A stretch of DNA of 46,418 bases from a candidate division KSB1 bacterium. GTDB lineage: Bacteria; Zhuqueibacterota; JdFR-76; DREG01. A model generated the notes under the pieces. It was not told the DNA's origin. It saw only the letters and a list, made by a program, of their open reading frames with translations, and did no database searches. The stretch's first letter is position 1. Each line of letters begins with the position of its first letter. Both the position numbers and the translations under genes were made by a program. Of this stretch, positions 1 to 45,300 are shown piece after piece. Location of the stretch: the NCBI GenBank assembly GCA_022566355.1, contig JADFJB010000018.1, positions 1 to 46,418 on the forward strand, written 5' to 3'.

Positions 1-260
1 TCATATACGCCATTTCCGTCCAAATCGGTTACAACCACAAACTCCGTCCAAATGGTCTGCCAGGAATGTGTCCAAGTGTTTTCTATGGAGAGTACGGAAT
101 AATCTGGGTCGATCATTCTTGCATACATATATTCCAAGCCTTCAAGAAACTCGGCGGGGATATAAAATTCCAGGTAGGCATAACCATTGGCGTCGGTTGT
201 GCCGGTAATTTCGTCATAGTAATAGTCGGGATCCAATTCATCGCCATACCAGGTGGTCAT
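1..260 (-). pseudogene. Truncated second copy of the VPS62-like secreted protein gene (runs off left edge)
   Basis: The minus-strand frame is open from an internal ATG at 260 to the window edge. It encodes about 86 residues, nearly identical to the N-terminal region of the protein at 945-2414 (shared TTWYGDELDPDYYYDEITG and SIENTWTHSWQTIW). DNA positions 38-260 align without gaps to 2033-2255. The signal peptide and first beta-strand of the full copy are missing. Just upstream the alignment needs a one-base gap, and a TAG lies in frame five codons before the ATG, so this copy has lost its proper start. Near the edge it reads VTDLDGNGVYE, an EF-hand-like Asp-rich loop where the intact copy has DDLDNDLVDD. 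The rest of the gene lies outside the window, so whether a downstream part survives cannot be seen. Confidence 0.6.
38..260. repeat. Direct repeat, copy 1 (copy 2 at 2033-2255)
   Basis: These 223 bp align without gaps to 2033-2255 (offset 1995) with only scattered substitutions. Similarity ends near 270, where the sequence changes abruptly. Both copies read in the same direction as part of a secreted-protein gene, so this is a tandem partial gene duplication rather than a mobile element. No inverted ends or transposase are visible. Confidence 0.8.
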
Positions 261-326
261 CCAGTATTTCGACTACGAATAATTATAGAATGTTACCTAT
301 GGATTAGATTCGGAATTTTACTTTGC

Positions 327-734
327 TCAAAGGTTGCCAAGACCCCAATTATAGCCTGCCCAGACAAAAAGAGATAAGGCAGCTAGGCCCACTGCAATTG
401 TCATAATCATGTTAGGACGTTTTTTTAACTTTTTAATTTTTAAGATTGATTCAAGATTAACCGATTTTTGAATGGACACATTATTTTCTGAATAACTTAC
501 TAAAATTACTTTGTCATCTCTGCTAAAAAAGAAGCAATCCAATCTAGTTTGATCTACAAATAAAATAGTGATAGAATCACCTTTTGTTAATTCTGGAATT
601 TTCGGGGTGGCAATAGAATCTATAAATTTGATGTATGAACAATTAACGTTAGAGGTTATGATAATACAAAAAATAAGTATTGTATAAATGTATTTCAGGC
701 TAGTACAGTCAATTACTTTTGATTTTATAGTCAT
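327..734 (-). CDS. Small secreted or lipoprotein-like protein with C-terminal membrane segment
   Basis: About 135 aa from the ATG at 734. A TTG at 746 would add four residues, and neither start has a clear Shine-Dalgarno. An N-terminal hydrophobic stretch (YIYTILIFCIIIT) ends at SNVNC-S, a poor lipobox, so a signal peptide or lipoprotein signal is likely. The middle (residues about 35-100) is mixed beta with a basic KIKKLKKRP end, followed by a C-terminal transmembrane segment (MIMTIAVGLAALSLFVWAGY) ending GLGNL. I do not recognise the family. It sits between the intact and truncated copies of the VPS62-like gene, all on the minus strand, and may have arrived when the second copy lost its 5' end. 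Confidence 0.6.
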   Translation of the reverse strand: MTIKSKVIDCTSLKYIYTILIFCIIITSNVNCSYIKFIDSIATPKIPELTKGDSITILFVDQTRLDCFFFSRDDKVILVSYSENNVSIQKSVNLESILKIKKLKKRPNMIMTIAVGLAALSLFVWAGYNWGLGNL

Positions 735-890
735 GATTCCAAACAAGAATTTAGAATAAAAAAAATGATGTTATTCACAATATGCTCAAATCCTGCGCGT
801 CTTTCAAATAGGTGTATTGATCAATAATTATTATTATTCTAATCTGAAATTACCTCAATTGGCCCTTAATTTCTTTTTAAAAATTGCCAG

Positions 891-929
891 AAAAAAGTGT
901 AGTTATTTTTATATTTCAGCTTACACTTT
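891..929 (-). terminator. Possible intrinsic terminator after the VPS62-like gene
   Basis: On the minus strand AAAGTGTA (from 929) pairs with TACACTTT (to 894), an 8-bp stem with a loop of about 20 nt, followed at once by further T residues. It lies 16 nt past the stop at 945. The loop is long and the stem AT-rich, so the call is moderate. Confidence 0.4.
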
Positions 930-944
930 CCATCAAAGGAATAT

Positions 945-2414
945 TTAATCACCGACTGCGTCATCGAGTATCCAAAATATAACCACCTCAAATAAAAAGA
1001 ATATGTTTCCAAAATTTGGTGAATCAGTGAAAAATGTCCATTCGTGTGACGGATTAGCGGATTCTTTCGCTGGCATAAAGGGTGATCCGGTATGACTAAA
1101 CCACCCTGTTCGACCTCTATATGCGAGCCAGTGCTTGCTACCGGAACCCAGAGGATAACTATGAAATTCTAAAGAATAACCCGAGTCAGGGCATTCAACC
1201 AAACTTTGTTTACTTACTTCACCGAGTTTTATCAAAATATCGTATGGGAAATATAAATCATAACCGGAAGGATCATAATCTAGCCGGTCTTTATATGTTT
1301 GTAACGGTCCGAGTGGATTTATTGAAAATTCTGATTTATACAGTGTACTGTAGCGATTATAGGAAGCATGCCCATTAGCTGCGATCCAAATATGAAGATT
1401 GGTATGGTTTTCATCGTATCCTTGTTGTATGCCGGAATAAGTTAAGGTATTACTTCCGCTCCACCAGCACGAAGAAGCTGATACAGTATTTCCCCCCTCA
1501 TGGCGATAGAAATTAACCTTATCCGCTGCGAAAACACCTCCATTTTGTGTTAATCTAATCGAGACGTGTTCCCAATCGCTTTCATGCCAACCAGTTGCTT
1601 GTTCAGTAATATCATTCATTCCCATATAGTACCAATACTGAACATAGTGGTAGGTTGCATCTTTATAAACATGATAATAAACAGGTTTTTGTCCAGTCGG
1701 TGCGCTAGAGTATCTTTTACTGTCTATTAAATCTAGGTTATAAACTTCATTTGATTGGCTGCCAGCACCATATGTATCCCAATGCCATAAACTCCATTTA
1801 TGTAGAGAGTTTTGACCTCCAATAATCTGTTCTGAATGAAGTTCCTGGCCAATGTCATTATATACTTTTAATGTAAAAGAACCATCAGCTAAAAGATTAT
1901 CGAAATTTTGTAAGCCAGCTTGAAGATCATAAGAATGTTTATGCAATATCGGTTTAAACTTTTCAGCTAGTTGCAATTCCAAATCATCATCTACTAAATC
2001 GTTATCCAAATCATCCAAATAATAAAGAACCTCAAACTCCGGCCAAATGGTCTGCCAGGAATGGGTCCAAGTGTTTTCTATGGAGAGTACGGAATAATCC
2101 GGATCGATCTCTGTTGCATGCATATAATCCAAGCCTTCAAGAAACTCGGCGGGGATATAAATTTCCAGGTAGGCATAACCATTGGCGTCGGTTGTGCCGG
2201 TAATTTCGTCATAATAATAGTCGGGATCCAATTCATCGCCATACCAGGTGGTCACTTCCAGTTTCAACTGCACGCCGCCTACACCAGCGCCTGCTTGATC
2301 CTCTACATCGAAATAAGCGCTGTAGGTCATGCCGCCGCCGGGTTCTTGTGCATCTTGTTCTATGGGTACAATAATAATTAATATCAGGCTTAAGGCAATT
2401 AAAATTCTTTTCAT
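945..2414 (-). CDS. Secreted VPS62-like domain protein
   Basis: A 489-aa protein from the ATG at 2414, chosen because AGGAGAA lies 5 nt upstream and a signal peptide follows directly (MKRILIALSLILIIIVPIEQDAQ). Residues about 25-130 form a beta-rich domain (the part duplicated at the left edge), then an acidic D/N-rich linker (DDLDNDLVDDDLE). The C-terminal 300 residues carry HESDWEHVSIRL and, later, ANGHASYNRYS. This D-W-E-H plus G-H-A-S-Y pair is the signature of the VPS62 family (Pfam Vps62), found in fungal proteins and many secreted bacterial proteins. No T9SS tail is present. The biochemical function of this family is not established. It follows the frameshifted T9SS gene by 70 bp in the same orientation. 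Confidence 0.7.
   Translation of the reverse strand: MKRILIALSLILIIIVPIEQDAQEPGGGMTYSAYFDVEDQAGAGVGGVQLKLEVTTWYGDELDPDYYYDEITGTTDANGYAYLEIYIPAEFLEGLDYMHATEIDPDYSVLSIENTWTHSWQTIWPEFEVLYYLDDLDNDLVDDDLELQLAEKFKPILHKHSYDLQAGLQNFDNLLADGSFTLKVYNDIGQELHSEQIIGGQNSLHKWSLWHWDTYGAGSQSNEVYNLDLIDSKRYSSAPTGQKPVYYHVYKDATYHYVQYWYYMGMNDITEQATGWHESDWEHVSIRLTQNGGVFAADKVNFYRHEGGNTVSASSCWWSGSNTLTYSGIQQGYDENHTNLHIWIAANGHASYNRYSTLYKSEFSINPLGPLQTYKDRLDYDPSGYDLYFPYDILIKLGEVSKQSLVECPDSGYSLEFHSYPLGSGSKHWLAYRGRTGWFSHTGSPFMPAKESANPSHEWTFFTDSPNFGNIFFLFEVVIFWILDDAVGD
2033..2255. repeat. Direct repeat, copy 2 (copy 1 at 38-260)
   Basis: This is the intact member of the 223-bp repeat pair, lying inside the N-terminal part of the VPS62-like gene. 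Confidence 0.8.
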
Positions 2415-2484
2415 GGGTTTCTCCTCTTGGAAATTAGAAGTCAATTTGTGTTTCTGTTTTCATCATCTTTCGCACTTGCTTTTC

Positions 2485-3766
2485 TTACTTCAACAGCAAA
2501 AGCTTACGCTGTGCTTGAAAGACGCCCGCCGACATTTTATAAAAGTAGACGCCACTGGGAAGCTGCCGGCCATGGTTATCCAGCCCTTCCCATGTTGTGG
2601 TATAAGCGCCGGCTGCAAAAAAACCATTCACCAGGGTTCGCACCAATTGGCCATTGCCGTTATAAATCGCCAGGTTGACATCGACCGCTTCTTTAAGATC
2701 AAACTGAATTTGCGTGTTGGGGTTAAACGGATTCGGGAAATTGGCATGAAGTGCAAAATCCCGGGGTAAAACGTTGTCCGAAGTTCGGGTCGGGAAAAGA
2801 GATGCGGCTCGTTTTTTAAGCGCTGCGAATCCCAATTCTTCGCCGTGGAATTCCGCCGCATCGGAAAGATTGTCTTCAAAATCCGCCAGTTCCGGCGCCT
2901 GCACAATAACCACGGACAGCTGGATCGTTTCGCCGGCAACAAGCGGGAACGGTCCGTAACTCAACAGGATGCGGTAATCGCCTGTTCCGGTTGTGCCGGG
3001 CGTGTTGCCCTGCAGGTAGGCATAACGCTGCTCGTCATCATTGGGATCGTCGCCGGCTTTCCAATAAGAAACCATAGGCGCTTCGATCCCTAAAATCATG
3101 GCGCCCAGTAAAGGGATCTCTGTGGCTTCTGTTTCGCCATCAAAAATAAAAGCGGCTTTATCGTTGAAAACTTTGCCGACCTTGTCGTTAGCCGGTGAGC
3201 TGCGGTCCGGATAATCCGGCGCATCGATGTCCGCCCAAAATCCGACATAGACGCCTTCCAGGGGCTCGGCATTTTCCGCCAGGGAGATTTCATAATGCAG
3301 CAATCCGAAGCGGGAATTCTTGAATTCGTATACATTTTGCACCACCCGAAATCCTAATGGTGTGTGTTTATCGAAGGCAGTCCCGTCTCCGAAGGATGTT
3401 GAAGTTATTTTATTCACCGCCGGAAAAGAGGTTTGCTCTTGTATTGTAAATGAGTTTCGTTGCCGGGTCCATTCCGGCCGGTGGGTCATTTCATTGCCGT
3501 CGCCGCTGGTGACACGGATTTCTCCCGAAAGGGGTAACCGCGCCAATCCAGAGCGCAAAGCGAGCGTCATAATTGACATAAGTGGTGAATTTTGAGTCTT
3601 TATTCACATGGCGCGAAGTACCGAAGTAACCATAGCTTTGTTCACTCAGTTTCAGCCCGCCAATTTTGGAGTGATTATCTGGTGCTATTTCCTGGGCGAA
3701 ATTAGCAGTGAACAGGCAAAAAACAAAACCGGCTACCAGTTTACAAATGAATGTTAAACGGTTCAT
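2485..3766 (-). pseudogene. T9SS-secreted protein with type A sorting domain, interrupted by a frameshift
   Basis: Two overlapping frames form one gene. The first (3766 to about 3530) starts MNRLTFICKLVAGFVFCLFT...FAQ, a signal peptide preceded by AAGGAGAA, and runs to ALWIGAVTP. The second continues SGEIRVTSGDGNEM to the stop at 2485. Removing one base from the CCCCTTT run at 3528-3534 joins them as GAVTP-SGEIRVTSG, about 426 aa. The body is beta-rich (FGLLHYEISLAENAEPLEGVYVGF... DIDAPDYPD). The last 85 residues are a T9SS type A sorting domain: NFPNPFNPNTQIQFDL, then SGVYFYKMSAG and QRKLLLLK. Such tails direct export through the type IX system and surface attachment. The break may be a sequencing indel or a genuine recent mutation, since nothing else in the gene is decayed. 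Confidence 0.75.
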
Positions 3767-4265
3767 AGGTTTCTCCTTATCTAAATGATCATAAATGTTA
3801 TATTTAAAGTGGTGGTTTGTGATAACAACTGTTGTTTAAATAAAAGTTGTCGACCGCTGTGATTTCAGCACTTCAAATTATTAAGCCGTAACTAACGTAG
3901 AAAAAGTAACAAGATTTTTTAAAAAGAGCGGTTTCTGCTTGCAATAAATAAAAGATTCTCGATCTACCAGCAAAATAATTAGACTACTCCTTTGTTAAAT
4001 AAATCTAATTCTATTCGCCACCTTGCATAAATGTTAGTTAAAAAAATTGATACTACTTGAAAAGTAAATCCCACACACCCCACAGAAAACGACCCCCAAA
4101 ATATTAGGTACTCAGAACATGTACACCCCTTAAATGAACATATTTATATTCAAATATTGACTTTTTGCTTTAAAGCTTTAATGGAATTTACATTTTGAAT
4201 TGTTTGATCCTGAGAAAGTGTAAATAGGTTAATAATTAAAACATTCCTTTAACTCACCAGCGCTA
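3767..4265. other. AT-rich divergent intergenic region
   Basis: About 500 bp separate the minus-strand T9SS gene from the plus-strand cytochrome operon, so promoters for both should lie here. A perfect 12-bp palindrome TTAAAGCTTTAA is at 4170-4181, just after TTGACT (4158-4163), and could be an operator or promoter part for the cytochrome operon. I see no convincing coding sequence, RNA gene or terminator. Confidence 0.35.
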
Positions 4266-10360: not shown

Positions 10361-11122
10361 TCACTTTATAAAATTTTTTCCTGCAATCATATTAAAATGT
10401 TTTACAGTCAAATCATCGTTGGTCTGTACACTTTTGCTAAAATCTGTTTCCAGCACCATTTTCCATTGATATAATTTGGAAAACGTGTGTTTAACACGAT
10501 CCACCAATTCCTGAAAGCGACCGCTTTGCTCATATCTGTCCGCATCTTCCTTACTATCCCACACAGTAACCGATATGTATTCTCTCTTACTCTGAAGGTT
10601 TTCCGTTAAATAGGCATATAGACATCCATGGGTTAATTTTAAAACAGGGAGAATTTCTTCGTTATACAGGATTTTGAATTCGTTAGTTTTCCCGCTTTCA
10701 ATTTGTAGCGATACGATTCGAACATACATGCGGGCATTATCCTCTTTCAACGGGGGAACCGCTTCTGTTTGAGTGGTCACATTAAATTGCTTTACAATGG
10801 GTTCTTCCGGAACGGGTTTGTATTCCAGTTCCAGGTTTTCGGACAGATGAATTTTCCACTCGACAGCTTCTGCTAAATAGGGTCTGACTATTTCAACCAG
10901 GTCTTCATACACTCCGCTTTTTTCATAGTTTTCAGAATATTTCTGAGATTCCCAAAATGTCAATGAAATAAATTCCTCCGGATTTCGTCCACTTTGATTT
11001 AGACCTGCAAAGAGACAACCGGGCAGCTTTTGTAGTTCAGGTATAATCGTGTCATGATAAAAATCACGAAACTGAGCCAAAGTACTGAGATTTACTCTTA
11101 CTTGAAGGATACGCATAAACAT
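10361..11122 (-). CDS. Tandem antibiotic-biosynthesis-monooxygenase (ABM) domain protein
   Basis: A 253-aa protein with AAGGAGGG well placed before the ATG at 11122. Two repeats of a dimeric alpha/beta-barrel fold are visible. The first covers residues about 1-90 (FRDFYHDTIIPELQKLPGCL, EFISLTFWESQKYSENYEKSG). The second covers about 125-225 (FKILYNEEILPVLKLTHGCL, EYISVTVWDSKEDADRYEQSG). Each half has the stalk of an ABM/YgiN-type domain, and the repeat similarity shows internal duplication, so one chain may form the barrel normally made by a dimer. Substrate and catalytic role are unknown, and many such proteins are small-molecule monooxygenases or stress proteins. It lies between the alanine-racemase-like gene (107 bp upstream) and the GT2 gene (43 nt downstream). 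Confidence 0.75.
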   Translation of the reverse strand: MFMRILQVRVNLSTLAQFRDFYHDTIIPELQKLPGCLFAGLNQSGRNPEEFISLTFWESQKYSENYEKSGVYEDLVEIVRPYLAEAVEWKIHLSENLELEYKPVPEEPIVKQFNVTTQTEAVPPLKEDNARMYVRIVSLQIESGKTNEFKILYNEEILPVLKLTHGCLYAYLTENLQSKREYISVTVWDSKEDADRYEQSGRFQELVDRVKHTFSKLYQWKMVLETDFSKSVQTNDDLTVKHFNMIAGKNFIK

Positions 11123-11229: not shown

Positions 11230-12441
11230 CTAAAGGAATTCCCTCGGCAATAATGGATTCATCCAAATTAAAATTTTGTAAACAGAGGTTCCCGCCCAGG
11301 CCGCCAGTTCTTCGGCAGCAATTTTATTGTCACCTTGTTTGCCAAATAGAACAACCTCATCCCCAATTTTAATATCCTTTGAACCCGAGATGTTGATGGT
11401 CATGTGATTTGAAGTAACCAATGCCACAGATGGCCAACGTTTTCCATGGAGCAACACTTCTGCCTTACCAGCTGCCTGGTTTGGATAACCATCGGAATAA
11501 CCAATCGAAAGAGTGGCTACCGGTGTATCTTCTATTGCAAGAAAGGCTTTATGGTATGAAACGGAATCTCCGGGTCGAAGTGTTTTGACATACATGACCC
11601 TGGTTTTTAAAGTCATAACAGGGCGAAGGTCGATATTACGTGCTTTATACTCTCGTGTTGAGGGATACTGGCCATAGATGGCGATGCCCGGGCGGACCAT
11701 ATCGAGATAAGTTTCGGGTGAAGAGATTACCCCGGCGCTGCTGGCCATGTGACGCAGACCGAGGGGAATCCCCTTCTTTTTTGCGGATTCGCACACTTCC
11801 AAAAATCGTTGTAATTGGGCTTTATCAAATTCTTCATCCTCGGTGAGAGGCGTAAAAATTCCTTCGATCTTGATGCCATCCGAAACTGCGACTTTCTCAA
11901 TAAAGTGTAAAGCTTTGTAATACGGAACGCCGATTCGACCTAACCCTGTATCCATCTTGATGTGTACTTTTGCGGTTTTATTCTGCTTTCTAGCAGCCGC
12001 GGAAAGTAATTTAAAATCATCCGTATAAATGGATTGTGAAATGTTGTTTCGAACCATCTCTTCAGCTTCATGATTTGAAAAAGAACCAAAATTTAATATA
12101 GGTGTTTTAACTTCGTTCTCTCGCAGTGACAAAGCTTCTTGAAATTTGCCGACTGCCAAAAAAGCAACGCTTTGGCTTTCCAGGTATTTTCCTACTTTCA
12201 CCAAACCATGACCATAGGCATTCGCTTTGATAACCGCCATCACTGGTCGATTGTTTACCTTCTTCCTGATTTGATTTAAATTCCAGCCCATGTTTTTTAA
12301 ATCGATTTCCAGCCAGGGATCGGTTGGATTTTTTGGCTGGTTTGTAGGAATAGAGGCTACGGCTTCGTATCCCGAAACTGCTAAACCGGCAGCAGCGGCG
12401 CCTGATAATTGAAAAAAGTTCCTTCGATTAAAATTAGACAT
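11230..12441 (-). CDS. Tat-exported alanine/broad-spectrum racemase-like PLP enzyme
   Basis: A 403-aa fold-type III PLP enzyme. The ATG at 12441, with GGGAG upstream, begins MSNFNRRNFFQLSGAAAAGLAVSG, a twin-arginine signal, so the enzyme should be exported folded. The PLP lysine is in AVIKANAYGHG (K72). HIKMDTGLGRIG and the GDSVSYHKAF loop, with its catalytic-type Tyr, match alanine racemases, and SIGYSDGYPN matches the C-terminal domain. Where classical Alr has (S/C)-M-D, this protein reads SNHMTINI, changing the active-site entrance. The full Alr length plus signal argues for a functional enzyme. Export and the altered motif point to periplasmic production of D-Ala or other D-amino acids rather than the housekeeping racemase. 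Substrate range is inferred only. Confidence 0.85.
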   Translation of the reverse strand: MSNFNRRNFFQLSGAAAAGLAVSGYEAVASIPTNQPKNPTDPWLEIDLKNMGWNLNQIRKKVNNRPVMAVIKANAYGHGLVKVGKYLESQSVAFLAVGKFQEALSLRENEVKTPILNFGSFSNHEAEEMVRNNISQSIYTDDFKLLSAAARKQNKTAKVHIKMDTGLGRIGVPYYKALHFIEKVAVSDGIKIEGIFTPLTEDEEFDKAQLQRFLEVCESAKKKGIPLGLRHMASSAGVISSPETYLDMVRPGIAIYGQYPSTREYKARNIDLRPVMTLKTRVMYVKTLRPGDSVSYHKAFLAIEDTPVATLSIGYSDGYPNQAAGKAEVLLHGKRWPSVALVTSNHMTINISGSKDIKIGDEVVLFGKQGDNKIAAEELAAWAGTSVYKILIWMNPLLPREFL

Positions 12442-12599
12442 TTTCAGTACTCCCAAAATTCTATTAACCTGGATAATTCAAAACCATGATTATCAGATGA
12501 TTTTTTCTATTGCAGAATAGGGCAGTTTTGAAAAAGACACTGACGCAAAATAGCGACAAATCAAGAAAATTGCAAGAAGAATTAAAATTAATGGTTTTT

Positions 12600-12628
12600 A
12601 AAAAAGGTAGCAGTGAAATGCCACCTTA
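12600..12628 (-). terminator. Intrinsic terminator downstream of the 115-aa gene
   Basis: On the minus strand AAGGTGGCA (12628-12620) pairs with TGCTACCTT (12613-12605), nine pairs including one G-U, around a six-base TTTCAC loop, followed directly by a run of T. It starts 18 nt past the stop at 12646 and is a textbook Rho-independent terminator. Confidence 0.8.
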
Positions 12629-12645
12629 GGTATTATTGAAGTTGG

Positions 12646-12993
12646 TTAATTATTGCACACTCGGGGAATTATCCAAACTTTTTTAATCGGGGTGGTAACG
12701 ACATGATTACCAAATTCCAGACACAATCCGCGCGCTGCTACGATATCTAGCTTTATGATGCTTCCGCCCCAGGTGCATCCGTTTATTGTAGTTCTAAGCG
12801 GAGACAATCCATTGCGATCGAACCAACCCCCGCTGACCAAATAGTGTCCGTCAACGTCCACCTGTATTGAGTAAGTTGAATTTTTGGTTTTTACAAATAA
12901 CCAGTCTCCATATTTTAAATCCACCTTTCGGATTTGAGTCAGGTTCTTTGCATGTTCGGTAATTGTGGAGAGATTGTGTCCTTGTGCTTTCAT
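12646..12993 (-). CDS. Hypothetical 115-aa beta-rich protein
   Basis: A 115-aa protein starting at the ATG at 12993, preceded by a purine-rich AAAGAAAA. There is no signal peptide or membrane segment, so it is probably cytoplasmic. Residues 25-110 are predicted mostly beta: DLKYGDWLFVKTKNSTYSI, then VDGHYLVSGGWFDRNGLSP and a Gly/Trp motif NGCTWGGS, ending PIKKVWIIPR. I do not recognise the family. It has its own terminator and is separated by about 200 bp from the racemase gene, so it appears to be a single-gene unit. Confidence 0.65.
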   Translation of the reverse strand: MKAQGHNLSTITEHAKNLTQIRKVDLKYGDWLFVKTKNSTYSIQVDVDGHYLVSGGWFDRNGLSPLRTTINGCTWGGSIIKLDIVAARGLCLEFGNHVVTTPIKKVWIIPRVCNN

Positions 12994-13123
12994 TTTTCTT
13001 TAATCGGTATCTTATTTTTTAATTTAATAATAAAATTTAAAGAATACAAGTTGAAAAACTAGTGATCCTTTTTTATTCAAAAATAATCAAAAATACATAT
13101 GAATGAGACGTTTACTCGATCCT

Positions 13124-13300
13124 TTAAGTTCTATTCCATTTTCGTATGATTAAGAGACATTTTATACCATTAACACCGCTCTCAATTTGCTTATCTACTT
13201 TTTTGAATGCTTTCAGTAATGGATTCGGGATATCTTCTTGATTCTCTGGATTCAAAGCGAAATAAGCTGGACGAAATAATCGGGCATTGATTGGTGTCAT
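13124..13300 (-). CDS. Possible 58-aa small protein
   Basis: The ATG at 13300 opens a 58-codon frame reading MTPINARLFRPAYFALNPE, then an acidic/Pro stretch and a helical KAFKKVDKQIESGVNG, ending KCLLIIRKWNRT. Its composition looks more protein-like than the longer overlapping frame at 13191-13385. No strong Shine-Dalgarno is present and I recognise no homologue. It could be a small gene or a gene relic in the 457-bp gap between the 115-aa gene and the NhaC gene. Confidence 0.3.
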   Translation of the reverse strand: MTPINARLFRPAYFALNPENQEDIPNPLLKAFKKVDKQIESGVNGIKCLLIIRKWNRT

Positions 13301-13415
13301 AGCTTTTTACTGAATGAATCACATACTCTTCAAAAAAAAAGTCTAGTCGGTTTGAGGCGTAGTTTCGATAGAAGATATTCCGCAAATAATTCGATTAAGC
13401 GGTGAGTTAATTATT

Positions 13416-13441
13416 AAAAAAGGAATAACAGTTTTTATTCC
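13416..13441 (-). terminator. Intrinsic terminator after the NhaC gene
   Basis: On the minus strand GGAATAA (13441-13435) and TTATTCC (13428-13422) form a perfect 7-bp stem with a six-base AAACTG loop, followed by six T. It begins 10 nt beyond the stop codon at 13451. Confidence 0.75.
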
Positions 13442-13450
13442 AACAAATGA

Positions 13451-14842
13451 TTACCCGGATTTCCTACCAAATCCAGTTATTGCAGCAATAATCATTAAGG
13501 GAAATAAAACCAAACCATAGAAAAAGAAAATAGCCTCCTGGGTCCAATCCAATACTTCAACGAAGGCATACCGGTCGGAAATTTCACGCTGGATTGCTGC
13601 AGCAGCAACGATAGTAGCCGAATAAGGCAACACATATGGAAAGGAACAGGAAATGGTGTCCAAAAGATTTGCGCTACGATGGGGATGGATGTTATGCAAT
13701 TTTCTTAAGGAGTTCGCTAAAGGACCAGCAGTTATCATTGCAACTGTATTAACCGAAACACAAATATTCATAAAAGAAATCAATGCAACAATGGCTAATT
13801 CCGTACCGCGTATTGTTTTAGCAATCTCTCGTTTAAGCCAATTTAAAAGAATTTCTAAAAAACCACCCGCTTCCATAATTCCGATAATGGTCACCAATAA
13901 TAATGTCAGAATTGCAGTAGGTAGCAAAGACATAGCGCCGCTAACTGCAGTGCCAGCAATCGAGCCCTCACCGGTAAGATGGAAAACACGATCGATTGGA
14001 AATACACCGGTAATAGGTCCTACTACAATTGCTGCTACAATACCGGCGGTTAACGCAGCCAAGAAATGACGACCACTGACCGCAACAACAAAAACAATAA
14101 CAGCTGGAATCAACATGGGCAGACCGGTAGGATCGGCAGTTTCCGCAAGTAGTTTCTCTGCTTCAGCAGCAGCAATATTCGACTGACCGCCGCCAAATAC
14201 CAGGAAAAGCAGCGATGAAATGCCGGCGGCGATCAACACATATTTAAGCCTCGATCGAACCACACCACCCACATCAGTTTCCTGTGTGGCTGCAGATATG
14301 ATGGTTGTATCTGAGATCGGCGCCAGGTTATCCCCCAGCGCAGCGCCACTAAAGATAGCGCCCATCAATGCAGCAGGATTTCCCCCCAAAACTATACCGG
14401 CGGGATACAGGACGGCGGTAAATCCAACGATCGTTCCCAAACCTGTACCAACCGAAGTAGCAAACAAAGAAGCAGATATAAAAACAGCGAGTGTAAAAAA
14501 AGAACCGGTTAAATGTAGCTTCCAGCCAATCCACACCATCGCTTCGACCAACCCGGAATCTGCGAGAATGCCGGAAAATGCGCCAGCCCACAACCAGCAC
14601 ACAACGGCAACTGTCGCTACTCTGTTCGCCATAAGCGAAAAAATACGCTCGCTGTAATGGGCCACATCTTTCGCCAATAACATCCCGGCAGAAATGCCGA
14701 CCATACAAGCGATGATCATTCCTTCAACTGCGGGAGAGCCATAAATGACCAGGGTTACCGTAAAAACGATGAATATAACTAAAGGGACAATACTTAAAAT
14801 CGGTCCGCCACGAAATTCGATTCGGTTGGAGTTATTTGTCAT
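13451..14842 (-). CDS. nhaC: NhaC-family Na+/H+ antiporter
   Basis: A 463-aa polytopic inner-membrane protein with AAGGA about 10 nt before the ATG at 14842. About eleven or twelve helices are apparent. The conserved NhaC motif GAALGDNLAPISDTTIISAATQ (about residues 165-186) carries the Asp residues expected for ion coupling, and SVGTGLGTIVGFT and MNICVSVNTVAMITAGP are typical of the family. Members exchange Na+ for H+, and some relatives move organic anions or amino acids. Here the gene lies between the exported racemase and the NSAR/GNAT pair on the same strand. That makes a role in ion-coupled transport linked to amino-acid turnover possible but unproven. The gene ends in its own terminator. 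Confidence 0.85.
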   Translation of the reverse strand: MTNNSNRIEFRGGPILSIVPLVIFIVFTVTLVIYGSPAVEGMIIACMVGISAGMLLAKDVAHYSERIFSLMANRVATVAVVCWLWAGAFSGILADSGLVEAMVWIGWKLHLTGSFFTLAVFISASLFATSVGTGLGTIVGFTAVLYPAGIVLGGNPAALMGAIFSGAALGDNLAPISDTTIISAATQETDVGGVVRSRLKYVLIAAGISSLLFLVFGGGQSNIAAAEAEKLLAETADPTGLPMLIPAVIVFVVAVSGRHFLAALTAGIVAAIVVGPITGVFPIDRVFHLTGEGSIAGTAVSGAMSLLPTAILTLLLVTIIGIMEAGGFLEILLNWLKREIAKTIRGTELAIVALISFMNICVSVNTVAMITAGPLANSLRKLHNIHPHRSANLLDTISCSFPYVLPYSATIVAAAAIQREISDRYAFVEVLDWTQEAIFFFYGLVLFPLMIIAAITGFGRKSG

Positions 14843-15107
14843 TTATCAGAATCCTTATTTCATAACAATATTTTGGCTAATATATTAAGATCAAGACGTA
14901 TTTTACTTATATGTCATACTATTAGCAAGGTATTTTTCAGCTTGATTAGATTTTTCAGCTATCCCATCCCAATACGCCTTGGACTTTAGCAAGGACATAG
15001 GACTGATTCTTTACCCCCATATTGGTTTTTGTGCGATAAATTTTTGCAAAATAAAAATCAATTTCTAATTTGACAAATTTTCTATTATAAAACGAATTAC
15101 AATAATT

Positions 15108-16235
15108 TCAGCTCACATGCAACGTCTCACTGCGAACAGTCAGGTTATCAACGCGATCCATATTTACCTCAACCCCCATGCCAGGTTTATCCAGCGGCAC
15201 AGTTACCATTCCGTTCTCATCCATAGTCCATTCCGGTTTAACAATATCTTGTTGCCAGTAACGACTGCTTGGCGAAACGTCCCCAGGTAAAACAAAATTC
15301 GGTAAAGATGCCAGTGCTACATTATGTGCCCGCCCGATTCCACTTTCGAGCATGCCACCGCACCATACGGGGATATTGTTTTCCTGGCAGAAATCATGGA
15401 TTGCGATAGAGGATGTAAAACCTCCAACTCTACCCGGTTTGATATTGATGATTTTGCCGCTGCCGAGTGCAACCATGTCTTCGGCCTTTTCAAGATTGGT
15501 GATGGATTCATCCAGGCAAATCGGTGTTTTGAGTTGCTGCTGTAATGTTGCATGTCTAATGATATCATCCCATGCCAGGGGTTGCTCGATCATCATTAAA
15601 CCGAATTGGTCTAGTTGTTTCAAAATGTCTATGTCAGCCAGTGTATAAGCGTTGTTGGCATCTGCCATAATTTTTGCCGCCATTCCCAGGGCTTCCCGCA
15701 CAGCTGATAAAAACTTAATATCTTTGCCTGGTTTAATTTTTATTTTGATTTTATTATACCCTTCAGCCAAACAACTTTGTGTTTTGTCTGCCAATATTTT
15801 TGGGCTATCCTGAATTCCCAATGAAATTCCGGTGGCAATTCGATCCCGTGTACCACCGATTAATTTGGATAATGGAACTCCCTGGATTTGCGCAGTGAGT
15901 TCCCAAGCGCCCATCTCGATTCCCGCTTTTGCCATATCATGACCGCGAATATCCGCATCGACCACTTTGTGGATTTCGTTTGGATGATTGAAGTTTTTTC
16001 CCAGTATACGTGGGGCTATCCATTCTTTGATGGCCAACCAGCAAGTATCGATGGTTTCAGGAGTGTAGTTGGGTAGTTCATCAGCGACGCATTCACTCCA
16101 GCCCGTGATCCCGTTTTGATCAATCAATTCAAGAAGAAGAAATCGCCGAATAGACATCGTTCCGGAAGATATCTGAAACGGCTCTTTCAAAGGCAATTGA
16201 ATTTCACGAAAAATAATTTTGTTTATTTGCAGCAT
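15108..16235 (-). CDS. Enolase-superfamily N-succinylamino acid racemase / o-succinylbenzoate synthase (MenC-like)
   Basis: A 375-aa protein with AAAGGG 8 nt before the ATG. The N-terminal capping domain (SGTMSIRRFLLLEL) is followed by a (beta/alpha)8 barrel with all superfamily catalytic residues: K164-x-K166 in KIKIKIKPG, metal ligands D192 (ADANNAY), E217 (MMIEQPL) and D242 (CLDES), and the general base K266 (INIKPGRVGG). GGMLESGIGRAHN is typical of the OSBS/NSAR subgroup. OSBS makes menaquinone precursor and NSAR racemises N-succinyl amino acids. No other men gene is nearby, but a GNAT acyltransferase lies 10 nt upstream in the same operon. That is the arrangement known for the D-to-L amino-acid conversion pathway described in Geobacillus, so NSAR activity is favoured. 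Confidence 0.85.
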   Translation of the reverse strand: MLQINKIIFREIQLPLKEPFQISSGTMSIRRFLLLELIDQNGITGWSECVADELPNYTPETIDTCWLAIKEWIAPRILGKNFNHPNEIHKVVDADIRGHDMAKAGIEMGAWELTAQIQGVPLSKLIGGTRDRIATGISLGIQDSPKILADKTQSCLAEGYNKIKIKIKPGKDIKFLSAVREALGMAAKIMADANNAYTLADIDILKQLDQFGLMMIEQPLAWDDIIRHATLQQQLKTPICLDESITNLEKAEDMVALGSGKIINIKPGRVGGFTSSIAIHDFCQENNIPVWCGGMLESGIGRAHNVALASLPNFVLPGDVSPSSRYWQQDIVKPEWTMDENGMVTVPLDKPGMGVEVNMDRVDNLTVRSETLHVS

Positions 16236-16245
16236 TTTGCGCCCT

Positions 16246-17064
16246 TTAATAAAGTTTATTTAATATGTAATAACAACGATCTGTTTTATCTCTATAAAAA
16301 CCAGTAAGTTCATAATTTTTATCAAGATAATGGAGAAATGATTGCCTGGTATTGCTCCGCCATTGTCCGGCCAGTTCTAAAGATTGTTTTTGTATCTCAT
16401 TGATATCCAAAGGGATTTCGATACGGACAAATTCCTCCTCCACAAAAATGGGTTCAACAAGAATGAGTTTTGTTTCTTCATTAATTTTTGTGTTCACAAC
16501 AATGGATTTATTACCTTCAGGTTCAATGGATTTAGAAGATTGTTCTGTATCCCGTCTCTTGTTGAGATCCCATCGTACAATAAACCGGTCCATACCAATT
16601 CCACGATGGAGATCGCTTTCATTGCCATCGATGTACATATCCGGAACATATTTGTCAATTTCCACTCCTAGTTTATTCAAATTTAGATGTGCATTTTTAC
16701 TAACAAGCGGGTCGAAGGTCCAATACATTGTCTCAATACCGAGTTTTTTAACGGTATCTGCCTGGTATCTTTTTAGACGAGCTCCCAAATTTTCATCCCG
16801 ATATTCCGGTTGAACAGCCAACATATGTGACCAATGAACCGGTTTTCCATCCATCAGTCCGGTCAAGCCGTAAACAAACCCGATCAATTCACCTTTTTCG
16901 TTAAATGCACCGGCAGTCACACCGCCAATTTTCTGACTGACCATTAAAATTGAAGGAGGAACACATTCCGCAAAACTTTGGCCCCATGTATCCTTCTCAA
17001 GGGTCTCACATGCCAGAAACTCCCGGTGGTCCTCTAACTGTCGTATTGTAATTTTACTTCGCAT
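16246..17064 (-). CDS. GNAT-family N-acyltransferase (COG3375-like), probable D-amino acid N-succinyltransferase partner
   Basis: A 272-aa protein. Residues about 1-150 form a GNAT fold: GVTAGAFNEKGELIGFVYGLTG, then HWSHMLAVQPEYRDENLGARLKRYQ, where the EYRDENLGARLK segment is the acyl-CoA pyrophosphate loop (usually Q/RxxGxG/A). FDPLVSKNAHLNLNKLGVE and ERGIGMDRF-like HRGIGMDRFIVRWDL are characteristic of COG3375. The C-terminal 100 residues are a charged helical extension. It is 10 nt upstream of the NSAR/OSBS-like gene and transcribed with it. Published NSAR operons pair such a GNAT with NSAR, the GNAT succinylating D-amino acids. The third enzyme, an L-desuccinylase, is not in this window. 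No clear Shine-Dalgarno is visible before the ATG. Confidence 0.75.
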   Translation of the reverse strand: MRSKITIRQLEDHREFLACETLEKDTWGQSFAECVPPSILMVSQKIGGVTAGAFNEKGELIGFVYGLTGLMDGKPVHWSHMLAVQPEYRDENLGARLKRYQADTVKKLGIETMYWTFDPLVSKNAHLNLNKLGVEIDKYVPDMYIDGNESDLHRGIGMDRFIVRWDLNKRRDTEQSSKSIEPEGNKSIVVNTKINEETKLILVEPIFVEEEFVRIEIPLDINEIQKQSLELAGQWRSNTRQSFLHYLDKNYELTGFYRDKTDRCYYILNKLY

Positions 17065-39368: not shown

Positions 39369-42300
39369 TCATTTCAACAGCAGCAGTTTGTGGGCCTTGG
39401 CAAACTTTCCTGCCTTAACCAGGTAGAAGTATACGCCGCTTGCGAGGCCAAACCTGGTTTCATTGAATGAGACTTTATACCGCCCTGCCGACTGTTTCTC
39501 ATCAACCAGAACAGTTACTTTCTGGCCCAGAATGTTGTAGATGACCAGTTCTACGTGTTGGTCTGTTGGAATTCCATATTCAATTGTTGTCTCCGGATTA
39601 AATGGATTGGGGTAGTTCTGGTTCAGATAAAATTCATAGGGTACCAGCTCGTCGCCATTGGCCAATGCCGTATAAACGTATGGCTCGAGCAATTGCCCCC
39701 CAATGTCATCGCTCTTAAACAGCACGGTGTTTTCGACTTTTCGGGTGTCATCTGCCTTAGAGTCGTACACCTGAAAACGAACGGAATCGCCTTCGGCCGT
39801 GTCTGAATAGATCGTCAGAAACACGAAATGTCCTTCCAGTTCGGGGACATATATGGGCTGGGCCAGGCCTCGGCAGGTCTCACCCACAAAAGCCCCGATG
39901 ATGTCATCGCTGCTGCTCAATGTCTGTCCATTGAATTCAAGCAGACCGGTCATGGTCATATTGTATTCATAAGCCTTCACGTCTAAGGACCATTCAGGTT
40001 TACCTGCAAACGCAATTGTGCTCTGGTTGTCGACAACTTCTTTACTCAAATCAGGATAGAGTAAATCGCCCGGCTTGCTAATTTTTAGCAGATACCCCTG
40101 GCCGGGAGTCATAACCTTCAAATCGCCGAGCCAGGCTCTGTTAAAGACATCATAATCGGCAAATTGGGTTTGGCTTTTGATGCGATCGCCGGTGGCAGGT
40201 TTCAACGAGGACAGTGCATCATTGACATCTAATAACTCGTCATGCATGTAGCCAATCCAATTCCAACCGCTATCGACCGGGATGGACGTGTTGAATAGGT
40301 CCACCGGTTCCCCAACTAAGCGAAGTTGGTCAGGGCTGCTCAAGTTAATGTGGTAGCTTTTGCCAGTTTCAATGCTTTCGAGATTACCTATCCAGCCGGT
40401 GCCCTCAAGATACTGACTGAAGCCGATCTGGCTCTTAATGAGATCGCCGTTCCTGGGTGATAGACTCATCAATGCCTCATCAAGAGATGTTTCTATTGTC
40501 TCGACATTGTTGGAAAACCAGGTCCAACCTGAATTCATAGAAAATGTTTGGAAAGATGCATCAGGTTCAATAAGAATCGGATTGGTGAGGCTACCATAGG
40601 AGGCATTGCTGCTAAAAAAATAGTCTGGCCTGAAGTATGCATATTCCTTGCCGGTTGAAGCATCCCACAAACGGAAAGTAAGAGGTTCGCCACTGGGCAC
40701 GTTGCTGTAAACAGTTATAAGGGCAACAAATCTACCGATGGCGGGAACATATTCCACATGGGTAACACCGCGGATTTCGTTGTCTACATAAACACTCAAC
40801 AGGTCAAAAACGTCGTCCGAAAGGCTAGTCTCTAGTATTAGCTGGGCGGTGACATTCATGCTATAGGTATACACACTTGGATTGATCTGCCATGCGGGCG
40901 CTTCATGCAGAACGTCGATAGAAACCTCTAATAGCTGCTGGCCGTGAGAGGTTTCTACAAATACCGTATCCTGATGGAGTCCGGTATCTAGCTGTCTATC
41001 GATTGTGAAGGTTATTTCTATTTCGCTCTCTGGTGCAATCTCACCGCTAAGCGGGCTGGGAGTGAGCCAGGCAGGGAAACGGCTGATGTTAAATGACAGG
41101 GTATCCGTGCTGGTATTATTCAGCTTGCTGGTGATCGATTCGGAACGGTTTTTATAGACTGTGGAAGAAACCATCGCGCTGGTCCAGTAAACCTGGCTTG
41201 GATCTACCCGAAAAGACCAACTGACCGCTTTGCGCAGTATCTTACCATTCACGGCTCGGATGTCCGATACTTTAGCAATTAATGTCCGGTTTGCCAGTTG
41301 CGAAAATGGCAAGCTCGGGCTGATATGGAGCGTTTCGCCGTTGCAGTTCAGTGTGACATCGATTCTTGCGTCATCATCGGCAAACCTCAACGAAACCTGG
41401 CGTTCGGCATCGATGGAAGCACAGTCCAGGGCGCCGCTGAGTCTGATGGATGGATTTTCGCCGACGTTGAGCACGCCATCGGAGGGTTCCGGAGTGCCAA
41501 GAACCAATAGCGTCCTGCGATCGATGCGGCCATGAATTGTACTGCTGTAAGTCACGCCTTCGTTACCGCCGTCGCTAACCGCGCGTAATTCATATTTACC
41601 ATCGGGCAGGTCAGAAACATCCCAATCTGCGACAATATAATCCGCAGGCAGTTCACGATAAGGGATTTCAAAAACCGTTAGCCACGCTTGTAACGGCTGC
41701 CGGTATTGAAGTTTAATGTTTTCAAGGTATTCATTATAGGGATCATAATCATTGATAATGATGGGCACGGATTCCTGGTCGCTGCTGCCCACGCTCCAAC
41801 CGCTATTTGGGTAAAGGAGATTCAAATTACTCAAGGAACTGCTAAAATGTGCGGAAAAAGTGACGGTATCAGCAATGGTCAGCTCTCCTCTGGCCAGCCA
41901 TTCGTCGTATTCACACGGTGGGGCTAACATCAATTGCAGATTCTCATAGTCGAAGGCGAGCGGTCCCCGTTCCACGGTCAAGGTTGCAGTGTAGGCCGAA
42001 TCTCCGGCCGGAATGAAATAGGAGAGTGCATTACCCATCGGCACGCCCCCGACCCTTATAATGGCACCATCGGGATTGCTGAGCTGAATGACCCGCAGAT
42101 CATATGCCCGGGCTTCGCCGCTTTCGCTGGTATTGCCTAAAGATAGAATAAACGTCGCCGGCTCATCGGGCGGAACGTCTTGCTGAATAAACGTGTCAAT
42201 GGCTAATTGCACGCCGTCCCGTGGCTGCGTGCCGGGCTCCCACGGGCAACTGCTGGTACCAGCAACCAGTTCGAACACCGGCGTACCATAGCCATTGACG

Positions 42301-45300
42301 TCCTTTTTTATATCGACGCTGAAAAAGTCTCCGATATCGTCGTCTCCCAAGCTGAACCCCAGGGTAGTTTCCTGGGAATTCGTGATATCATGAATCGTTA
42401 TTCTTGTGGTAATTTGAAATTTCGTTTTGACACCTATCTCCAATGGAACGCCGGTAATCACAACCCCAAGGCCAGCAGCTGCCTCCTCCTCAATGAATGT
42501 AGTAAATTCGAAGGTGTGAGCCGAGTCCTTGGCCATTGTAGAGGTGTAGGTGGTCTGGGTGTCGCCGCCAAAAGAGAGGTTGCGCTCAAACTTTGCATCG
42601 TCCTTAAGTTTGTCATTCATCGCAAGGGCCTGCTGCCAAACCGCAATAGCAGCATTAATTTTTAAATTAGACGCAACCGAGTCTGGTTGCAGAATGGTCA
42701 GTAGTTGTAATTGGGGAATGACGGTGTTTCTGATATGATCCTCGGTGTAGATGTAGGTCGTTTCAAACCCTACCACCTCCAATGCCAGGGAGGTGTCCCG
42801 AACCACCTGACAGGAGGATCTGTCATAATCGATCACATCGGTCAGGGAGAACAATTGGTTCATCGAGGCGCCGATAAAGACATCGCCCTTTGAGGTTCGG
42901 AATTCTTCGGTGGTAGTTAATGTTGTGGTGAACACACGGGACCCACCAAAGCCACCACCTGCAGATACACTGCCGGTCAGAATTACGTATCCGCCAAAGT
43001 TCGCAACCGGAAGGCCCGCCGGCGTGCTAGGAGTGGAACCTACGGACCCCAATCTTACATCGGCAAATACTCCACCGCCGGCAGTTTCTTCGAACGCGAA
43101 GGAATAACGATTGATAATCGTGCTGCCCTTAGACTGGAAGCTGTAACTCTGGTCCCCTGGCGGATGTCGCAAAATCATCAAAGGCAGTTCCGGCGTGGTG
43201 CTCGCAAAAGTAGGCGTCCGCGGTCGGTGGCCCGTGACCAGTACCCATTGATCCAGGGAGGCCGTCTGACTATCCACGTCCGCGGTCACCTGCAGCAATT
43301 TCTGATACGGATGCGGGCCGCCGCCCAGGATATTCGGTTCGCCAGCGGTTAGGGTATATTCGGCTCGGCCGTTCTTCAGTTCCAGCGTTACCGGCTGTGC
43401 CGGGTTACCACCGATATCGTCGAAGATAGAGACGGTTCCGTTAGCTACAAGGCAGACTTGACCTTCGTATTCCTCCAATACTTCGATCAAAAGCAAATAG
43501 TCTTTAAACTGCCGCATGATGGGTATGCTATCGCAGGTTGTTTCTTCAGGGAATATGGAAAGTTGGATGATCGGCGGAGGATGATAGATGAAATTCTGAC
43601 GCTGGTCCTCCCGGCTTAAATCGACCGTTACAGGAGAGAAATATTCCAGAATCGCGCTGGAATCCGCATTGTCGATTTGGATTAGCTCAACCGAATATTC
43701 TTGCGCCGGGAATAAGGGACGAAAATTGCCGTTGAAATCGGTTACAATCGTGGTGTCAAGACAAGCCGGGTTGGCAGAGCTTGTGATTCGGATTTGTGCG
43801 GTTCCCAGTCCTGCGATACATCCGCCTCTCACTTTGCCGAACAGTTTGCGGCTTTCGGTATCCCAGAATTGCAGGCCATCTACATCTTCTGTAATGGTTA
43901 GGCTGATATCGTGCGGCTGAAACAAGTGAGCATAGCCCGAATCGCCAAATGTTGGAGTGATGGTATACTCTTGATCGGGTTCCTCTATGGCGAGTGCAAA
44001 TTTCCCCTCGGCATCGGTAAGAACCTCGGTAGCCTCCCCGTTTAGAAAGATCTCCACGCCCTCGACCCCACACAAGGTGCCGGCAAATTGTATCTGGCCC
44101 TTCACTGAAAACGTGGTGGTATCGGTAAAACTGACGGTCCGCCCGCCAGCGGTTTCTAAGTACAGGTCTGTAAATTCCGGATCGAAACCGTGCCTTTCCT
44201 TGTCTGGCGTCACCCTGAATTCCCGCCCTTCATCATAATACATATTTCGAATATCATAGTCTCCGTTGACATCGGTGACGGCACGATGCTTGACATCGGG
44301 CGTGTCGCTGCTCCAGACGGCCCCGATAATCTTGCCATGATGACCACCTCCGTGGGTATAATCCGCGGCCAGGGTCTCACCGGACCTGGTGGAATCATCA
44401 AAGGTCCAGTACCCCACTAATCCCGGCTCATTGCCTTGCAGCAAGCGATACATATCCGTTTTGATAGCCGGGCCAGTACGCGCAATATTCCAGAGACGCA
44501 CTTCGTCGATCTCGCCATCAAACGGCTGCTTCACTTTTCCAAACTGCTTATATGCCCCGATGGCAAGGGTATTGGTTGTCGTAATACGCCTAACATCGGA
44601 AGCCTGCTCTTTAGCAATCCCGTCGATGAAAAATTGGGCGCTATCGCCGTAAACGACGACAGCCACATGTCGCCAATCATTGCTGTTCACGGTCGATTCA
44701 CTCTGCAACCGGCTCCGAGAGCTGCCATCCCATTCCGCATACACTAGCTTCCCATCCGACACCTTAAACTCTATGGTGTGGTTGCTATCGGTATGACCCC
44801 ATGCCAGGATTTGCTGATCACTGTCTGAAGAAGTTTTAACCCATGCGGAGATGGTCGTTTCATTGGTTTTCGGGATGTGTGGAATTTGTACATAATCATC
44901 CTTGCCGTCAAAGTCCAGCGCAGTGGTCAGAGAACTCGAAGTAGGAGCAACGGAAACCTCGACCTCTGCAATTTCTAAGCCCCGATCCGTTTGCACCTTG
45001 CCACTAATCCGACCATTTGCACGCCTCCAGCCAAAGTTGGCCATGGTTCGTGGCGATTCCCCCCAGAAATTATTGTAAACCGATACTTCATAGGCATAGA
45101 TCTTCCCAGCAATGGCACCAAAATCAATAAAGACGGAAGCCGCGAGGACCGTGCTGCCGATCTCTATGCCATCGCGATATATCTTAAATCCTTCTACGTT
45201 ATTGGAGCGGTTGTTCCAGGAAATTCTCACCAGGTTGCCCGACTCGCCATCCCCGGCTGTGAGCTGGCCTGGCTGTGCAATAAACTCGTACAAATAAGCT

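Follow-up and report, generated by a model that had tools for sequence, protein, structure and literature searches.

The 46,418-nt stretch analysed here, hereafter the window, is contig JADFJB010000018.1 of a candidate division KSB1 bacterium (GenBank assembly GCA_022566355.1; contig C18 of genome G000, which has 4.62 Mb in 213 contigs and is 98.5% complete). On its minus strand a gene for a GNAT N-acyltransferase precedes a gene for an enolase-superfamily enzyme of the N-succinylamino acid racemase/o-succinylbenzoate synthase (NSAR/OSBS) kind. By comparison across genomes the two are a real two-gene unit, and we consider it likely that the GNAT-paired enzyme is bifunctional, with a predicted role in D-to-L amino acid conversion and a second role as the OSBS of menaquinone (vitamin K2) synthesis. 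The gene pairing, the co-inheritance of the two genes, the intact catalytic residues, the set of men genes and the lack of a detectable menC are direct observations on the genomes. The parts of the unit are as follows.

16246-17064, minus strand: GNAT N-acyltransferase, 272 aa (PF00583), predicted to act as acyl-CoA:(D-)amino acid N-acyltransferase; first gene of the pair
16236-16245, minus strand: GNAT-NSAR spacer of 10 bp; the sole operon-like spacing of the run
15108-16235, minus strand: NSAR/OSBS (enolase superfamily), 375 aa (TIGR01928, catalytic residues)

The GNAT-NSAR/OSBS pair

The NSAR/OSBS protein matched MR_MLE_C of Pfam with 164.6 bits and passed TIGR01928 with 358.9 bits against a curated cut-off of 200.65. 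Its best solved relative was 2zc8 (316.6 bits), named N-acylamino acid racemase, as are 1r0m and 1sja among the other top solved relatives; a further one, 1wuf, is named hypothetical. The initial annotation, made from the DNA letters and their open reading frames (ORFs), had credited this enzyme with complete catalytic residues. All of them were found: the lysines K164-x-K166 and K266 and the metal ligands D192, E217 and D242 (aligned to 2zc8, 1wuf, 2ggg and 1r0m), together with the second-shell R269, the counterpart of Amycolatopsis R266. Two divergent TIGR01928 proteins of the phylum, L065 (G053) and L070 (G051), have an altered GGMDETGIGRAVNI motif, and their genomes are without the GNAT and without menB.

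The partner protein matched Acetyltransf_1 (PF00583) with 24.5 bits against a cut-off of 20.7. Its AlphaFold2 (AF2) model had a predicted local distance difference test score (pLDDT) of 84.7, and the best Foldseek matches were GNATs. Among the first 50 listed, identity was 12-20%, mostly over 165-185 columns of the 272 residues, and the template modelling (TM) score among the matches listed was 0.39-0.50 by query and 0.59-0.84 by target. Sequence relatives in the PDB were weak, with a best E of 9e-05 for the single sequence and 7.2e-04 for a profile.

Searches of the phylum were run on 82 genomes, with G000 among them; the profile for the GNAT was made from 10 such proteins encoded at NSAR loci. 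TIGR01928 was over its cut-off in 21 of the 82, and a fragment with an adjoining GNAT in G074 (L078) was also counted as present. A strong match to the GNAT profile was found in 17 genomes, every one of which carries NSAR/OSBS, and in none of the 60 genomes without NSAR/OSBS (Fisher p = 1.6e-13, kinship ignored); weak matches in G080 and G081 (~21 bits, E ~5e-4) were excluded from the count. Five NSAR/OSBS genomes were without the GNAT (G051, G053, G067, G068 and G069), and a second GNAT match in G004 scored 111.5 bits. Of the 21 NSAR loci over cut-off, 13 had the GNAT within the 1.5 kb searched on either side. The two genes were on separate contigs in G026, G029 and G078, with linkage still possible in G029, where the NSAR gene starts ~750 bp from the contig end. 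GNAT and NSAR distances were correlated over 13 genomes (r = 0.865, a value reached in none of 5000 permutations; r = 0.788 when G004 is left out). At three loci the GNAT-less TIGR01928 protein adjoins a CN_hydrolase (L117 in G068, L119 in G067 and L114 in G069), with a cytidylyltransferase gene beyond the CN_hydrolase in L117 and L119.

An M20 amidohydrolase gene directly follows NSAR in five of the 20 neighbourhoods of relatives (L102, L104, L107, L108 and L109, the last truncated by the contig end) and also in a metagenome-assembled genome labelled Lentisphaeria (L123). None adjoins the pair in the window. As the initial annotation had remarked of the L-desuccinylase, no M20 was present among the eight window genes scanned with Pfam; the remainder of 4266-46418 was read as ORFs, and 1-4265 was covered by an Rfam scan only. 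Elsewhere in the genome, where such an enzyme had been proposed for search, there were 19 M20 matches, 16 of them over the cut-off, and 15 of the 19 were compared with the operon-linked proteins. Candidates emerged on contigs C97 and C126. The C97 protein shares 72% identity over 242 aa with the M20 in the NSAR operon of G005, which belongs to the window's family. The C126 protein, without a signal-peptide-like start, is 39-41% identical to the M20s of the other four loci, and the proteins of C43 and C97 are 33-39% identical to the same four. On contig C117 (L030, 5075-7865) a PF01168-type pyridoxal 5'-phosphate (PLP) protein adjoins an M20 peptidase whose N-terminus, judged by eye, resembles a signal peptide; this is possibly a second D-amino-acid locus of G000.

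For the pair, a Geobacillus-type pathway that racemises N-acyl-amino acids is a well supported prediction. The GNAT would add an acyl group, most likely succinyl, to an amino acid that is most likely in the D form; NSAR/OSBS would interconvert the N-acyl-D and N-acyl-L forms; and an M20 hydrolase from another locus of the genome would free the L-amino acid. It is from the protein families that we infer the NSAR and OSBS activities, the succinyl donor, the D-selectivity and the identity of the M20 that would complete the route. That GNAT and NSAR make up an N-acyl-amino-acid racemisation unit had been suggested at the outset, and the suggestion gained from their co-occurrence and co-divergence, from the M20 genes in the operons of relatives and from retention of the pair where OSBS is unneeded.

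Menaquinone genes and an undetected menC

When men genes were sought elsewhere in the genome, as had been advised, menF, menD, menH, menB, menA, menE and menG were found and a separate menC was not detected. They lie in two clusters, menG-menF-menD-menH on contig C9 and menB-menA-menE on C108. Both menD (470.8 bits) and menB (477.9 bits) were over their curated cut-offs; menG, menF, menH, menA and menE were identified from ORFs, similarity and synteny with the men loci of relatives, not from family models. A small PIN-toxin-like ORF (by eye) lies between menG and menF (L029, C9, 6299-6682).

No protein of G000 exceeded the TIGR01927 menC cut-off of 130.55; the best score was 67.8 bits, and the three weak matches were the C7 protein, the window gene and the C11 protein. 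A profile search found no second TIGR01928 protein over cut-off in G000, and the futalosine gene mqnE (TIGR03700) had no match there. In other genomes menA and menE are separated by an enolase-type gene: in G002, which is of the same order (L081), at seven f12 loci (L080, L082-L087) and in G034, G043 and G044, with TIGR01927 scores of 134.7 bits in G026 and 216.8 bits in G002. Nothing lies between menA and menE in G000, where they are 23 bp apart, or in G004, where they overlap as called.

Besides the window enzyme, G000 encodes two MR_MLE_C proteins over cut-off (C11 and C7) and three below it (C24, C40 and C13). Neither of the first two passed any menC cut-off, and both were rejected as menC. 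For the C11 protein (L002) the highest scores came from the DgcA and L-Ala-D/L-Glu epimerase models and fell short of their cut-offs, and in the C7 protein (L003) Arg replaces the second catalytic Lys (NIRISK for NIKPGR). At L032 (C7, 7942-11681) the gene of this Arg variant follows, after 5 bp, that of an 856-aa protein, which appears by eye to be a desaturase/hydroxylase-like part fused to a GH3-like part.

Because the men set is complete except for menC and mqnE is absent, the window enzyme is most likely the only OSBS of G000. The same racemase would then dehydrate 2-succinyl-6-hydroxy-2,4-cyclohexadiene-1-carboxylate (SHCHC), the MenH product, to o-succinylbenzoate, acting as MenC in a pathway that is otherwise complete and would have lost its own menC. 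The initial annotation had held that a men pathway without menC, taken together with OSBS-only activity, would speak against its proposal. Such a pathway, with no menC detected, is what the genome contains, and the comparative data make the other half, OSBS-only activity, unlikely.

Three genomic backgrounds

Across the phylum menB was found in 24 genomes, 16 with menC and eight without; these counts include G023, with a split menB, and menC just under cut-off in G022, G023, G024 and G027 (123.8-129.7 bits). Six of the eight genomes with menB and no menC have NSAR/OSBS (G000, G004, G068, G069, G071 and G073). With strict cut-offs the corresponding numbers are 11 genomes and 9 with NSAR/OSBS. 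In G039 menC is present with no menB over cut-off. Both menC and NSAR/OSBS were found in six genomes, all f12. Ten NSAR/OSBS genomes had no menB over cut-off, and some of these are incomplete (G005 77%, G067 67% and G078 79%). The f23 genomes G075-G077 are 99-100% complete and keep the pair with no menB over cut-off and mqnE over cut-off. Over the whole set mqnE passed its cut-off in five genomes, all f23 (G075-G077, G080 and G081), and G074 has a split copy below it.

The pair is thus kept in three backgrounds: where OSBS is unneeded (f23), where another menC is present (f12) and where NSAR/OSBS is the sole candidate (G000, G071, G073 and the divergent G004). Since relatives that have a menC besides it or use the futalosine route carry it too, the NSAR role appears to be independent of menaquinone. 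The simplest reading is that NSAR would be the shared function and OSBS an addition where NSAR/OSBS is the sole candidate.

A tree was built from 42 of 47 sequences and rooted at its midpoint solely for display. In it the window enzyme clusters with that of G005 (94/90), next to f12 (a weak join, 82/35) and f23, within a supported clade (98/87); 12 of the 16 rows in this clade are GNAT-linked. The pair from G067 and G068, which has no GNAT, joins outside that clade (98/95), and the G004 enzyme is placed apart, its long branch lying near Chloroflexota (80/96). The tree permits, without proving, a takeover of the menC role by a GNAT-linked NSAR in the lineage of the window.

Neighbouring genes

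Downstream of the pair the run continues with three ORFs.

13451-14842, minus strand: NhaC-family antiporter, 463 aa (PF03553); judged to lie outside the system
12646-12993: ORF of 115 aa between the NhaC gene and the racemase gene; no Pfam or NCBIfam match
11230-12456, minus strand: Tat-type Alr-fold protein, 408 aa (TIGR00492); judged to lie outside the system

The four genes that had been described as one minus-strand run, from the GNAT to the Tat racemase, are all ORFs at these positions, and the run is not evidently one operon. The gaps measure 10 bp (GNAT-NSAR), 265 bp (NSAR-NhaC), 457 bp (NhaC-115-aa ORF) and 189 bp (ORF-Alr); together with the missing conservation in relatives they led us to reject a single operon from the GNAT to the Tat racemase. 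A promoter and terminator scan gave 17 promoter-like sites against a shuffle mean of 22.5 and eight terminator-like sites against 7.9. The top promoter-like site (11/12) lies immediately upstream of the GNAT gene (17146-17118), and the scan was discarded as evidence. The Rfam scan of the window gave no matches. Downstream of the racemase gene, 10361-11122 encodes a protein that matches the antibiotic-biosynthesis-monooxygenase (ABM) family in two stretches, and 39369-46289 encodes a 2306-aa protein with a C-terminus like a YPNPFNP-type sorting signal (by eye).

The Tat-type Alr-fold protein (Tat-Alr) matched Ala_racemase_N/C with 189.4/115 bits and TIGR00492 with 311.6 bits, and its model matched the Alr structure 4y2w (TM 0.85 by query, 0.89 by target). 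The TAT_signal match was weak (19.9 bits against a cut-off of 22.7), and an alternative start at an in-frame ATG 15 bp downstream gives MSNFNRRNFFQLSG. The label "Tat-exported" given to the protein earlier is nonetheless a well supported prediction, from an RR-x-F-[LF] motif in the window protein and five close relatives and from TatC in the genome. These full-length relatives come from G081 (69%), G080 (70%), G062 (62%), G006 (50%) and G004 (48%), with other listed matches at or below 41%. All six proteins of the group (6 of 82 genomes) have the twin-arginine motif and keep the PLP lysine and catalytic tyrosine motifs. Compared with 15 ordinary Alr rows, the THFA-like motif is replaced by T[PTG]xTE, the HxANS-like motif loses its Asn, the GRVCMDQ-like motif becomes A-x-[VIM][TS][SA]NH and the YADGYNR-like motif YSDGYP. 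Because these conserved residues are replaced, the substrate is not readable from family membership; Tat-Alr is possibly the most unusual protein of the run. A canonical Alr is encoded elsewhere in G000 (C77, 404.9 bits).

According to a passage in PMC7890096, the broad-spectrum racemase Bsr is periplasmic. Tat-Alr has the Alr fold with its PLP-Lys and catalytic Tyr motifs, resembles Bsr in its predicted export, and differs in the replaced THFA, HxANS and GRVCMDQ motifs that its group shares. Its closest solved relatives are ordinary Alr and not Bsr (226 bits with 4y2w against 147 with BsrV). Among plasmids, a search for a Bsr comparator returned 434 records, all below 60% identity.

The NhaC-like protein passed PF03553 (Na_H_antiporter) with 61.3 bits against a cut-off of 23 and failed the NCBIfam equivalog TIGR00931 (61.5 against 370 bits). 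No ORF in the 20 NSAR neighbourhoods of relatives had NhaC or Tat-Alr as its best reference match, and tblastn with NhaC among L050-L079 found it only at the window's own locus, in a search of NSAR loci alone and not of the whole phylum. Tat-Alr and NSAR occur together in two of the six Tat-Alr genomes (p = 0.66), on separate contigs in G004, and by ORF reading the neighbours of Tat-Alr are not conserved in L147, L149 and L151. The link drawn earlier between these two genes and GNAT/NSAR was abandoned because neither was found at the NSAR loci of relatives and the racemase does not track NSAR; both probably lie outside the system. In G025 a DcuC-family transporter gene directly follows NSAR, with a weaker Na+/H+-antiporter match (33.4 bits), so a transporter could, in general, have a role.

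Discussion

Several observations weigh against a racemase that doubles as OSBS. R269 occurs in all full-length rows of the family alignment, including men-operon and GNAT-less members, and because it is invariant we dropped it as a sign of NSAR activity. The M20s of C97 and of the operon in G005, the nearest relative, have signal-peptide-like N-termini (by eye), absent from the M20s of the other four loci, and these fit poorly with a fully cytoplasmic route. Two genomes, G058 (97% complete, stop in menB) and G070 (83% complete), possess menB but lack both menC and NSAR/OSBS; either the detection of menC or the assemblies thus cannot be fully relied on, and menC absence is to be read with care. 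Since menC is on a different contig from menB in G036 and G037, the gap between menA and menE alone proves nothing. Contig C9 ends ~130 bp past menH in a fragmented assembly, so that a menC may lie past the end of a contig. The unlinked menC genes and the two genomes with menB alone would also suit a pair that only converts D- to L-amino acids, with OSBS supplied by another, unrecognised or unassembled, enzyme, as would the f12 relatives with menC besides NSAR/OSBS, the f23 genomes that keep the pair without menB over cut-off and the further MR_MLE_C proteins of G000. We regard this as unlikely, however: C11 and C7 stay under every menC cut-off shown, C7 is without the second catalytic Lys, and no menC separates menA from menE in G000 or in G004.

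The opposite view, that the gene is simply menC, with the GNAT as an unrelated neighbour and NSAR activity as incidental, draws on the naming of TIGR01928 as o-succinylbenzoate synthase, on a men set complete but for menC, on the place of the family as menC in Bacilli men operons and on G068 and G069, where a TIGR01928 protein is the sole menC candidate in genomes without the GNAT. We consider it quite improbable, given that all the strong GNAT genomes have NSAR/OSBS, even G026 and G078 where the genes are apart, that the pair persists in futalosine-pathway genomes and that M20 directly follows NSAR in five relatives. We give least credence to a full scheme along the lines of the initial annotation, in which the exported racemase makes D-amino acids outside the cytoplasm, NhaC exchanges them and GNAT/NSAR reclaims them. 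Four same-strand genes within 6 kb, a Tat motif with TatC, retained Alr catalytic Lys and Tyr motifs and the transporter after NSAR in G025 all accord with it. Against it stand the poor co-occurrence of Tat-Alr with NSAR, the failure to find an NhaC relative at any further NSAR locus that was inspected, gaps of 189-457 bp and the replaced motif residues, which leave the substrate not inferable from the family; we think such a scheme very improbable.

How a bifunctional enzyme arose in this lineage is a more tentative matter. A racemase kept for D-amino-acid salvage could have displaced menC and now carry an essential menaquinone step, reversing the usual OSBS-to-NSAR direction; we raise this, as a possible but on balance doubtful history, because the window enzyme nests among mostly GNAT-linked enzymes in the midpoint-rooted tree and G002, of the same order, keeps menC between menA and menE (L081). 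In that case a single active site would link respiration to the salvage of D-amino acids, and competition between its two substrates would be expected. Shifts between o-succinylbenzoate synthesis and amino-acid racemisation are a standing case in enzyme evolution, and the phylum offers a natural experiment, with close GNAT-paired enzymes in OSBS-needing, menC-bearing and futalosine genomes. A comparison of the enzymes between the three backgrounds would be a direct test of whether the racemase is shaped by selection for OSBS. The case is also a warning that a gene named NSAR or menC from a single line of context may have two jobs.

The closest parallel is an operon of Geobacillus kaustophilus, reportedly described by Sakai et al. 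in 2006 with the order GNAT, NSAR/OSBS, hydrolase. The Geobacillus enzyme is regarded as bifunctional. The window has the same GNAT and NSAR/OSBS core, and in five of its relatives an M20 hydrolase gene lies downstream. It differs in its phylum (KSB1), in that the hydrolase gene is not adjacent and in the apparent loss of a dedicated menC from G000, while six related genomes keep both. In PMC8142540, GkNSAR/OSBS is listed with N-succinyl-phenylalanine racemase activity, with kinetics given beside those of other enzymes.

The menC of Bacilli men operons (L130-L133 and L140) belongs to the same TIGR01928 family, is 46-49% identical to the window enzyme and lies within the operon after menE, whereas the window gene stands apart from the men genes and is paired with a GNAT. 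A passage in PMC4215206 states that some enolase-superfamily members catalyse both the OSBS and the NSAR reaction. The window gene shares with the enzymes treated there the catalytic residues and, apparently, a genomic need for both activities, and differs in that its assignment rests on genomic context. Most likely, it belongs to this already known bifunctional NSAR/OSBS kind, seen here in an unusually clear comparative setting.

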